Assembly: GCF_027925025.1 (NCBI RefSeq)
Contig: NZ_AP027058.1
Span: forward strand, 620,001 to 684,000
Direction: 5' to 3'
Source: Limnohabitans sp. MORI2
GTDB lineage: Bacteria > Pseudomonadota > Gammaproteobacteria > Burkholderiales > Burkholderiaceae_C
DNA: 64,000 nt
Shown here piece after piece: positions 27,688 through 30,057 of this stretch (positions are counted from its first letter, which is position 1; every line of letters starts with the position of its first letter). Both the position numbers and the translations under genes were made by a program. The notes under the pieces were generated by a model. It was not told the origin of the DNA, made no database searches, and was given only the letters and a program-made list of their open reading frames with translations.

Positions 27688-28611
27688 TTAAGCGTATTCA
27701 GCCAAAGCCGCTTTCATCTTCTTCATGGCTGCCACTTCGATTTGGCGAATGCGTTCGGCGCTCACGCCGTATTCGGCAGCCAACTCGTGCAGTGTCATGC
27801 CGCCCGAGCCGTTGTCTTGCACTTTGAGCCAGCGCTCTTCCACGATGCGGCGGCTGCGTTCGTCCAACACATTGAGTGCAGCGGCGATGCCGTCAGACGC
27901 CAGCACATCGCGTTGGTGTGCGGCAATCATGGCAGTGGGCTCGTGGTTCACATCGGTCAAGTAGGCGATGGGGCCAAAGGCTTCATCGCTTTCTTCGTTG
28001 GGCGTTGGGTCGAGCAACACATCGCCGCCGGCCATGCGCATTTCCATTTCCAACACTTCTTCGGGCTTGACGTTGAGCTTGCTGGCCACGGCCTCGACTT
28101 CTTGGGTGTTGAGGCTGTTGCGATGCGTGGCTTCGGTGGCGTCGGCCTTGAAGCCTTGCTTCATCGAACGCAGGTTGAAGAACAGTTTGCGTTGGGCTTT
28201 GGTGGTGGCCACTTTGACCAAACGCCAGTTGCGCAAGATGTATTCGTGAATTTCAGCTTTGATCCAGTGCAGCGCGTAGCTGACCAGACGCACGCCCTGA
28301 TCTGGGTCAAAGCGTTTGACGGCTTTCATCAAACCAATGTTGCCTTCTTGAATCAGGTCAGCGTGGGGCAGACCGTAGCCCAAGTATTGGCGTGACACCG
28401 ACACCACCAAACGCAGGTGCGAGAGCACCAGCTTTCCAGCGGCTTCGAGGTCGTTGTTGTTTTTGAGTTGACGCGCAAACTCCTGCTCTTGCTCTGGCGT
28501 GAGCATGGGCAAGCGGTTGGCAGCACTGATGTAGGCATCGAGGTTGCCCAGCGACGGAACCAGTGCCCAAGGATTGGAAACGGCGAGTTGCTGTTGTGTG
28601 ATTGCAGTCAT
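27688..28611 (-). CDS. rpoH: RNA polymerase heat-shock sigma factor RpoH (sigma-32), 307 aa
   Basis: A group 3 sigma-70-family protein with region 2 (DLIQEGNIGLMKAVKRFDPDQG), the RpoH box (QRKLFFNLR, about residues 139-147) and region 4 with a helix-turn-helix (LHELAAEYGVSAERIRQIE). It directs polymerase to chaperone and protease promoters. AAAGGAC lies 8 bases before the ATG. The promoter region contains a perfect CIRCE operator, so the HrcA repressor encoded at 43723 probably controls this gene: a link between the two heat-shock circuits. Confidence 0.96.
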   Translation of the reverse strand: MTAITQQQLAVSNPWALVPSLGNLDAYISAANRLPMLTPEQEQEFARQLKNNNDLEAAGKLVLSHLRLVVSVSRQYLGYGLPHADLIQEGNIGLMKAVKRFDPDQGVRLVSYALHWIKAEIHEYILRNWRLVKVATTKAQRKLFFNLRSMKQGFKADATEATHRNSLNTQEVEAVASKLNVKPEEVLEMEMRMAGGDVLLDPTPNEESDEAFGPIAYLTDVNHEPTAMIAAHQRDVLASDGIAAALNVLDERSRRIVEERWLKVQDNGSGGMTLHELAAEYGVSAERIRQIEVAAMKKMKAALAEYA

Positions 28612-28641
28612 TGAATTAGTCCTTTCGGATAACTAAAACGT

Positions 28642-28671
28642 ATATTAGCACTCATGGGTGGTGAGTGCTAA
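28642..28671 (-). promoter_or_regulatory. Probable rpoH promoter overlapping the CIRCE operator
   Basis: On the minus strand a -35-like TTAGCA (28666-28671) and a -10-like TAATAT (28642-28647) are 18 bases apart. The -35 hexamer and spacer lie within the CIRCE palindrome, so a bound repressor would block polymerase. Confidence 0.55.
28645..28671. promoter_or_regulatory. CIRCE element (HrcA operator) upstream of rpoH
   Basis: TTAGCACTC (28645-28653), nine spacer bases, then GAGTGCTAA (28663-28671): a perfect match to the CIRCE consensus including spacer length. It ends 33 bases before the rpoH start. HrcA, folded with the help of GroEL, binds CIRCE and represses; heat titrates GroEL and relieves repression. 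The hrcA gene is in this window. Confidence 0.93.
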
Positions 28672-28713
28672 ACCTTGCGTATTTTAGGGGTTTACCCGTG
28701 AATCGAGAAGGTG

Positions 28714-28742
28714 TTGAGGTACTGTGTTTTTTAACATATACT
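28714..28742 (+). promoter_or_regulatory. Sigma-70-type promoter of the small Cys-rich gene
   Basis: TTGAGG (28714-28719) and TATACT (28737-28742) are separated by exactly 17 bases. Predicted transcription start is near 28749, giving a leader of about 25 bases that includes the AAGGAG ribosome site. Confidence 0.7.
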
Positions 28743-28758
28743 GAATTTAATCACAGTA
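28720..28758. promoter_or_regulatory. Tandem LexA-like (SOS) boxes
   Basis: Box 1, 28720-28739: TACTGTG...ACATAT, weaker (CTGT-N8-ACAT). Box 2, 28739-28758: TACTGA...ACAGTA, CTG-N10-CAG with 15 of 20 matches to the E. coli consensus TACTGTATATATATACAGTA. They cover the promoter spacer and the -10/start region, the right place for repression; centres are 19 bases apart. Binding by LexA is inference. Confidence 0.55.
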
Positions 28759-28773
28759 TTTAAGGAGCCCTTT

Positions 28774-29001
28774 ATGCCCCCCATGACCTTGGAGCGAATT
28801 GCTGTGCAGTGCTGCAAGAGCTGCGCGCATGTGCTTCATTCCGACTCTTCTGAAACCCATTTGCGCTGTGGCTTGGGCTATTACATCCAGCCGCCGCTCA
28901 CGCGTAAGCAAGGCCGCATGGACAGCTACCCCGTGGTGGAGGCGCATGAGCGCTGCGGCCGCTGGCGCGAGAGCCTCCAAGGTGTTTTGAGGCGAGACTA
29001 A
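28774..29001 (+). CDS. Small Cys-rich protein, possibly SOS-regulated, 75 aa
   Basis: Supported as a gene by a consensus promoter, an AAGGAG ribosome site 6 bases before the ATG, and its exact fit between rpoH and ftsY (3 bases from the ftsY stop). Cysteines at 13, 14, 17, 32 and 61 plus H19 and H22 could bind zinc; the spacing CCxxC-x14-C is zinc-ribbon-like. The C-terminal half is basic (RKQGR, GRWRES, RRD). I do not recognise the family. LexA-like boxes over the promoter suggest a DNA-damage role, but this is inference. Confidence 0.75.
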   Translation: MPPMTLERIAVQCCKSCAHVLHSDSSETHLRCGLGYYIQPPLTRKQGRMDSYPVVEAHERCGRWRESLQGVLRRD

Positions 29002-29004
29002 ACC

Positions 29005-30057
29005 TCAGCCCAAGAGGGCATCGGCAAACTCTTGGGCGTTGAAGGTTTCGAGGTCTTCCACGGCTTCGCCCACACCAATGAAATACACAGGCACAGTTGA
29101 GCCACCTGCTGCTGCGCGGCCTTGACCCCACAGTGCGATGGCTGCCAGTACGCCACCTTTGGCAGTGCCATCGAGCTTGGTGACGATGAGGCCGGTCAAC
29201 CCCAACGCTTCGTCAAAGGCCTTGACCTGAGCCAGCGCGTTTTGGCCGGTGTTGCCATCAATCACCAGCAGCACTTCATGCGGGCCAGTTTCATCGGCCT
29301 TTTGCACCACGCGTTTGATCTTTTTCAGCTCTTCCATCAGGTGCAGCTGGGTGGGCAGGCGGCCTGCGGTGTCAACCAGCACCACGTCTTTGCCGCGTGC
29401 GCGGCCTGCGGTGACGGCGTCAAAGCTCACAGAGGCGGGGTCGCCGCCTTCTTGGCTGACGATTTCTACTGTGTTGCGTGTGGCCCATACGGCCAGTTGC
29501 TCGCGGGCGGCGGCGCGGAAGGTGTCGGCCGCGGCCAGTAACACCGAAGCACCGCTGTCGCTCAAATGGCGGGTGAGCTTGCCAATGGACGTGGTTTTAC
29601 CTGCACCGTTCACGCCAGCCACCATGATGACGGTGGGTTTGTGCGCACCAATGGTGAGTGGCTGTTCGAGCGGCTTGAGCAGTTGGGCGATGGAGGCGGC
29701 CAGCAAGGCTTTGACGGCCGATGGCTCAGTCGTGGCGGTGTCTTTGACGCGCTGCTTCAAGTCTTTGAGCAAATACTCGGTGGCTTGCACGCCAGCATCG
29801 GCCATGAGCAGGGCGGTTTCTAGTTCTTCATAAAGATCGTCATCAATCTTGGTGCCAGTGAACACCGTGCTGATGCTTTGGCCTGTGCGACGCAGGCCGT
29901 GGCCCAAGCGAGCCATCCAGCTCGCGCGGGGGCGCTCCGCTGGCATTTGTTGTGGGGGGGCTTCGGATGAGGCAGCGTTTGCGGATGCCGCTGTGTTGCT
30001 GCTCTTGGCGTCTGCCGCAGGCTGATCAGCGTTTTTTTTCTTGAAGAAGCTAAACAT
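29005..30057 (-). CDS. ftsY: Signal recognition particle receptor FtsY, 350 aa
   Basis: An SRP-type GTPase: short Ala/Gln-rich acidic N-terminal region (about 1-50), N-domain helical bundle, then G motifs GVNGAGKTTSIGKL (G1), DTFRAAAREQL, DTAGR (G3) and TKLDGTAKGG (G4). It docks ribosome-SRP complexes to the Sec translocon at the inner membrane. The acidic A domain is short compared with E. coli FtsY. Divergent from rsmD, as in many Proteobacteria. Confidence 0.96.
   Translation of the reverse strand: MFSFFKKKNADQPAADAKSSNTAASANAASSEAPPQQMPAERPRASWMARLGHGLRRTGQSISTVFTGTKIDDDLYEELETALLMADAGVQATEYLLKDLKQRVKDTATTEPSAVKALLAASIAQLLKPLEQPLTIGAHKPTVIMVAGVNGAGKTTSIGKLTRHLSDSGASVLLAAADTFRAAAREQLAVWATRNTVEIVSQEGGDPASVSFDAVTAGRARGKDVVLVDTAGRLPTQLHLMEELKKIKRVVQKADETGPHEVLLVIDGNTGQNALAQVKAFDEALGLTGLIVTKLDGTAKGGVLAAIALWGQGRAAAGGSTVPVYFIGVGEAVEDLETFNAQEFADALLG

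Follow-up and report, generated by a model that had tools for sequence, protein, structure and literature searches.

A small gene in Limnohabitans sp. MORI2, lying between rpoH and ftsY and encoding a protein of 75 residues, is probably a LexA-repressed member of the SOS (DNA-damage) response that a single clade of the genus acquired in one event. It was found in a window of 64,000 nucleotides (the whole stretch of DNA analysed, contig NZ_AP027058.1, positions 620,001 to 684,000, numbered here from its first letter), in a genome of 2.65 Mb assembled as one contig. Two adjoining LexA-type boxes lie over the presumed promoter of the gene, whose product is proposed to be a small soluble four-cysteine protein in which these cysteines likely form a metal site. 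Taken jointly, the three parts of this account, i.e., a real gene, LexA control and a four-cysteine metal site, are held with fairly good confidence on the strength of the comparisons described below. The features concerned are the following:

28720..28739, no strand assigned: LexA-type box 1, TACTGTGTTTTTTAACATAT, CTG-N10-CAT, a weak box lying between the positions of the -35 and -10 hexamers; the 12 orthologues agree in 15 of its 20 columns
28737..28742, plus strand: putative -10 hexamer TATACT, kept in 12 of 12 orthologues, inside the conserved block
28739..28758, no strand assigned: LexA-type box 2, TACTGAATTTAATCACAGTA, CTG-N10-CAG, overlapping the -10 hexamer and the presumed transcription start; 16 of 20 columns invariant
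28762..28767, plus strand: Shine-Dalgarno sequence AAGGAG, read directly; all 12 orthologues have AGGAG ahead of the gene
28774..29001, plus strand: gene of the 75-residue protein, between rpoH and ftsY, with the core C14-x2-C17-x14-C32-x28-C61-x2-W64

An earlier sequence-only reading of the window had noted both boxes, the AAGGAG, and a 75-codon frame with cysteines at positions 13, 14, 17, 32 and 61, and direct reading finds all of these where it placed them (ATG at 28774, stop codon ending at 29001). Against the E. coli LexA consensus, box 2 matches at 15 of 20 positions, the count given earlier, and box 1, which had been called partial, at 12 of 20. For a comparison within the genus, a LexA matrix was made from nine boxes (two from lexA, one from recA, two from Y-family polymerase genes, one from a RadA-like gene and three from UmuD-like genes, one of the last recognised by eye alone); several of them came from CTG/CAG pattern searches and were accepted on their neighbours, so that the matrix leans towards that pattern. 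Of the 63,981 positions scored in the window, box 2 ranks first (19.1) and box 1 second (11.7), with the next best site at 9.7. The training boxes score 14.2–28.9 when left out, and box 2 is typical of them. Among 20,000 simulated intergenic sequences of 162 bp, a site equal to box 2 occurred in 0.04% and one equal to box 1 in 2.3%, and an equally good pair at 19 bp occurred in none (0). This spacing recurs in the genus at lexA itself, where all 10 readable promoters carry a pair of CTG-N10-CAG boxes with a period of exactly 19 bp (11 loci were fetched, the promoter of L042 being unreadable), and the boxes of the small gene share the period (28722 to 28741).

Box 2 also resembles operators elsewhere in the source genome. 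Its reverse complement agrees at 18 of 20 positions with the box that precedes the gene of the Y-family polymerase, and the pattern TACTG-N10-CAGTA has three sites in this genome, at the small gene, the RadA-like gene and the Y-family polymerase gene. Across the 12 genomes that carry the small gene, the pattern has 30 sites, namely 12 at the small gene, 4 at Y-family polymerase genes, 5 at RadA-like genes, 3 at UmuD-like genes and 4 elsewhere, with 2 uninspected and some assigned by 20-mer identity to an inspected site or by a frame recognised by eye. According to a passage in PMC3323433, CTGT-N8-ACAG is the LexA motif of most beta- and gamma-Proteobacteria. The small gene agrees with such operators in having a CTG-N10-CAG core over the promoter, a tandem arrangement as at lexA of the genus, and LexA and RecA encoded in the same genome (PF01726 and PF00154 matches, respectively); it differs in that box 2 has CTGA instead of CTGT on one side and box 1 is degenerate (CAT). 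Two observations concern other candidate SOS genes of the genus. The RadA-like gene of the source genome (L103 1501-2904, C1:72788) has TACTGGCTATTTATCCAGTA ahead of it; of the 11 further genomes searched, 4 also hold this 20-mer, on one strand or the other (L111 was inspected), and radA may belong to the SOS regulon of the genus. At the lexA locus L049, a frame of about 80 residues directly follows lexA (from oriented position 2145 on) and is a possible operon partner of it; the search for SulA in that genome was empty.

Close orthologues of the small gene are found in 12 of 84 genomes of the genus, the source genome counted, with 78–100% identity, and their upstream regions could be aligned without trouble. 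Within the double box (28720-28758), 30 of 39 columns are identical in all 12, as against 14 of 46 in the spacer before it (28674-28719) and 5 of 15 in the leader after it (28759-28773), and every orthologue retains the CTG-N10-CAG of box 2. When the whole 39-bp element is searched for with up to three mismatches, it occurs in 12 of the 84 genomes, at one site each, and these are exactly the 12 that bear an orthologue. The earlier reading had proposed a scan of this region and of the orthologous rpoH-ftsY intervals, and had held that boxes lost in relatives keeping the gene would speak against LexA; both boxes come out on top, and the element is kept in 12 of 12. Its promoter, TTGAGG (28714-28719) followed after a 17-bp spacer by TATACT (28737-28742), is present to the letter and was upheld in part: the -10 hexamer is conserved throughout, whereas TTGAGG as a conserved -35 had to be given up, as it is found in one row of 12 (the source genome) and lies inside the drifting spacer. 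That the frame is a coding gene under purifying selection follows from the 12 orthologues and a pooled ratio of nonsynonymous to synonymous differences per site (pN/pS) of 0.121, with pS at 0.46. Rfam gave no match at gathering score, i.e., no described structured RNA, within 28500-29200.

Gene and operator also disappear together. In two close sisters by rpoH, L168 and L169, rpoH and ftsY are adjacent and the core of the controlling inverted repeat of chaperone expression (CIRCE; see below) before rpoH is kept, and the gene and both boxes are jointly absent. Thirty rpoH loci were fetched and 25, including 10 with the gene, entered a tree; missing from it are two gene-bearing genomes, G272, which has no rpoH match, and G268, which has a partial match and yielded no locus. 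The reading that suits the tree best is a single gain following the branch of L168 (node support 0.70) and a single loss in L169, the alternative being an older gain (node support 0.91) followed by two losses. LexA-type control, as the sequence-only reading had proposed, is thus supported by the footprint, the matrix score, the lexA-like spacing and the finding that the sisters lack the gene and the boxes together.

Under this control, LexA dimers would bind box 2 tightly and box 1 weakly and, by covering the -10 hexamer and the start site, would shut out RNA polymerase. DNA damage would then activate RecA and lead to the self-cleavage of LexA, upon which the gene would fire; in other bacteria, LexA is established to act in this way. 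To judge from conservation, the protein itself may fold around a single metal ion or cluster with Cys14, Cys17, Cys32 and Cys61 as ligands. Its likeliest role, which is a guess, would be that of a small adaptor in the damage response, binding either a protein or a nucleic acid. That it acts as an adaptor or as a brake on replication or division is put forward tentatively, and any single target is less likely still. Rather doubtful as a whole is the fullest form of the proposal, in which a small metalloprotein of a new family was recruited to the SOS response by a lexA-like tandem operator and, induced by damage in bacteria without SulA, serves there as a brake or adaptor, possibly with a cluster that is sensitive to oxygen or redox state. 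We know of no SOS core that includes the gene, and none of the open-licence papers listed deals, by title or abstract start, with SOS or LexA control in Limnohabitans or with this gene.

The protein had been described as an orphan, a description that has to be withdrawn: it belongs to a large unnamed paralogous family. Searching the genus gave 79 matches in 51 of 84 genomes. Twelve of these are the orthologues, and the weakest of the 67 further matches are perhaps due to chance. In the taxonomic family, 5 of 200 genomes match, 3 of them from this genus, and in the order 2 of 399 (the source genome and G087), among the matches listed and with no more than 14 candidates scored in each genome; the protein seems rare outside the genus. 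The family search suggested earlier found no Pfam or NCBIfam family for the 75-residue product. Alignments were made without truncated, interrupted, over-long and near-duplicate rows (e.g., L009, L010, L028, P0001, P0003 and P0010-P0012). In the first, of 34 sequences, C14, C17, C32, G33, R44 and C61 are invariant; in the second, of 82, C17, C32, G33 and C61 are invariant and C14 almost so. The four-cysteine frame is kept in 63 of 65 scored relatives (63 of the 67 non-orthologous genus matches and 2 from outside the genus), the exceptions being L009, which is interrupted, and L010, which lacks a start; L028 and L190 have stops within the frame and retain the four cysteines. Of the cysteines listed by the sequence-only reading, 14, 17, 32 and 61 thus form the conserved core, and Cys13, which is Ser in P0002, was dropped from the constant residues of the metal site.

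The members of this family are scattered, with diverse neighbours at the 23 loci inspected. An origin from phages was considered and rejected, as a phage collection held no match to the 75-residue protein or to its paralogue L012. The plasmid search gave one match of 39%, on a plasmid labelled Limnohabitans sp. TEGF004. PHROGs gave weak matches alone (best E 0.066), the solved structures gave one match by sequence (E 2.5), and of the 69 matches in the viral fold library none reached E 0.001. Two of the relatives, L034 and L039, have upstream of them a second small cysteine-rich frame with two CxxC motifs, and in P0027 the two cysteine-rich frames are fused into one of 145 residues.

Several findings weigh against the proposed account of LexA control and a metal site. 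The score of box 1 is lower than that of any training box and would be marginal if taken alone; among the orthologues it ranges from 6.7 to 11.7, the lowest value being found in one of them, against 14.4–22.3 for box 2. There is no conserved -35 among the 12 orthologues. The 30 sites of TACTG-N10-CAGTA in the 12 genomes compare with 34 of the reversed control pattern, and since the control is no rarer the site count is no evidence; it is location, conservation and layout that speak for LexA. Among the gene-bearing genomes, a LexA domain was found in 11 of 12 and a RecA of full or nearly full length in 10 of 12. The genome without a LexA match is G235 (97% complete, in about 370 contigs), which holds the gene and the boxes, and G252 and G268 gave no full RecA; these are likely gaps in drafts. 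With respect to the protein, a close relative, P0008, has Ser14 together with Cys13, and the structure search, which the earlier reading had also suggested, found no significant structural neighbour for either of two models. Finally, a box at training level stands before one of the 65 scored relatives (L013 in G080, 26.1), and a second relative, L193, reaches 12.4 with a site 235 bp upstream. With one such box in 65 relatives, LexA control was rejected as a trait of the family, which is not, taken together, one of damage response. The L013 box, TACTGTTCTTTCATACAGTA (L083 1270-2787), is a single LexA-type box shared with a divergent S24-type (UmuD-like) gene, after which come a frame of 273 residues without a Pfam match and, by eye, the start of a UmuC-like frame. 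The small gene shares the four-cysteine frame with its homologues in the genus and differs from 64 of the 65 relatives scored, which lack a box at training level.

Some of these points would suit another regulator, e.g., a phage-type or S24-family repressor, that binds the element, its likeness to LexA operators being convergent. Such a protein would account for the weakness of box 1, with its CTG-N10-CAT, and for G235 with its boxes and no LexA domain found, and the whole element can alternatively be parsed as one wide inverted repeat, TACTGTG-N25-CACAGTA. Against it speak a box 2 that falls inside the score range of the training boxes, orthologue variants of it that all keep CTG-N10-CAG, and a 19-bp tandem layout that is lexA's own, and we regard it as improbable. 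Far less probable still is that the conserved block serves the divergent rpoH instead of the small gene. The 162-bp intergenic region is common to both genes and contains the CIRCE of rpoH; the block, however, stops 15 bp ahead of the small gene and more than 100 bp from rpoH, occurs in the 12 genomes described as against rpoH matches in 83 of 84 (a few of them weak), and is missing from L168 and L169, which keep rpoH without the small gene.

As to what the protein does, it might be an iron–sulfur protein rather than the zinc protein that the earlier reading had proposed. Its fold would then be like that of high-potential iron–sulfur proteins (HiPIPs) or of the small benzylsuccinate synthase subunits, and it would sense or buffer redox stress in the course of the SOS response. 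With one model (mean predicted local distance difference test score, pLDDT, 81), five of five Foldseek matches, all weak (E up to 10), are HiPIP or alkylsuccinate/benzylsuccinate synthase complex entries, the matched chains being taken from their lengths to be small iron–sulfur subunits, and with the other model there is none. Like these 4Fe-4S proteins, the small protein has four cysteines, and it shares the opening C-x2-C and the closing C-x2-aromatic with 30 HiPIP sequences; it differs in a longer last spacer and, unlike those HiPIP sequences, has no signal peptide apparent by eye. A profile comparison with HiPIP (PF01355) placed the real alignment above 29 of 30 column-shuffled controls and was not significant, and PF01355 is not among the 10 families matched by the 34 relatives. 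Among these matches is the TiaS zinc ribbon, weakly, in 5 of the 34 (best E 0.017), the 75-residue protein itself matching no family. On balance the iron–sulfur proposal is possible and rather unlikely.

Another candidate role is that of an SOS-induced cell-division inhibitor in place of SulA. SulA, SidA, SosA and YneA are small SOS-induced effectors, short and lineage-specific genes under LexA-type control as this one appears to be, and the SulA family (PF03846) was found in none of the 12 gene-bearing genomes, with the E. coli control positive. This absence leaves a vacancy for a brake, or for the checkpoint or repair factor that the earlier reading had put forward, and is no proof of either. 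Small SOS-induced division inhibitors are documented elsewhere, such as SidA of Caulobacter (PMC4211646) and SosA of Staphylococcus. SidA, however, is an inner-membrane protein of 29 residues, and the protein studied here has four cysteines and no transmembrane stretch apparent by eye; in addition, its relatives are dispersed among unlike neighbours, mostly without LexA boxes. The adjacency to ftsY says nothing on division, because ftsY encodes the receptor of the signal recognition particle (SRP). A division inhibitor is given little credence.

If LexA control of the small gene holds, a small unnamed protein joins the likely SOS regulon of this freshwater genus. The locus would also constitute a natural experiment, with gene and operator seemingly gained together once and lost together once and with dozens of relatives in the genus that lack the operator, and could serve as a model case of how a dispersed family of small proteins is wired into a stress response.

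Of the flanking genes, rpoH has a control of its own, which lies outside the SOS unit:

27688-28611, minus strand: rpoH, sigma-70 domains
28647..28673, no strand assigned: CIRCE element TTAGCACTC-N9-GAGTGCTAA, perfect, before rpoH
29005-30057, minus strand: ftsY, SRP54 GTPase domain

CIRCE is the operator of HrcA. In the 12 orthologue loci, 18 of its 27 columns are invariant, with both 9-bp arms invariant and the loop variable. Its core, GCACTC-N9-GAGTGC, is present in 28 of the 30 fetched rpoH loci, and the full 9-bp arms in 23 of 30; the heat-shock sigma factor is therefore probably under HrcA in this genus. Among the open-licence papers listed, a literature search found no usable account of CIRCE before rpoH in beta-Proteobacteria. 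Between CIRCE and the boxes, at 28688-28697, lies a 10-bp near-palindrome, GGGT-(A/T)3-CCC, which is present in 21 of the 30 rpoH loci, including some without the small gene, at 9–30 bp from the CIRCE core and in 15 of the 21 at 19 bp.
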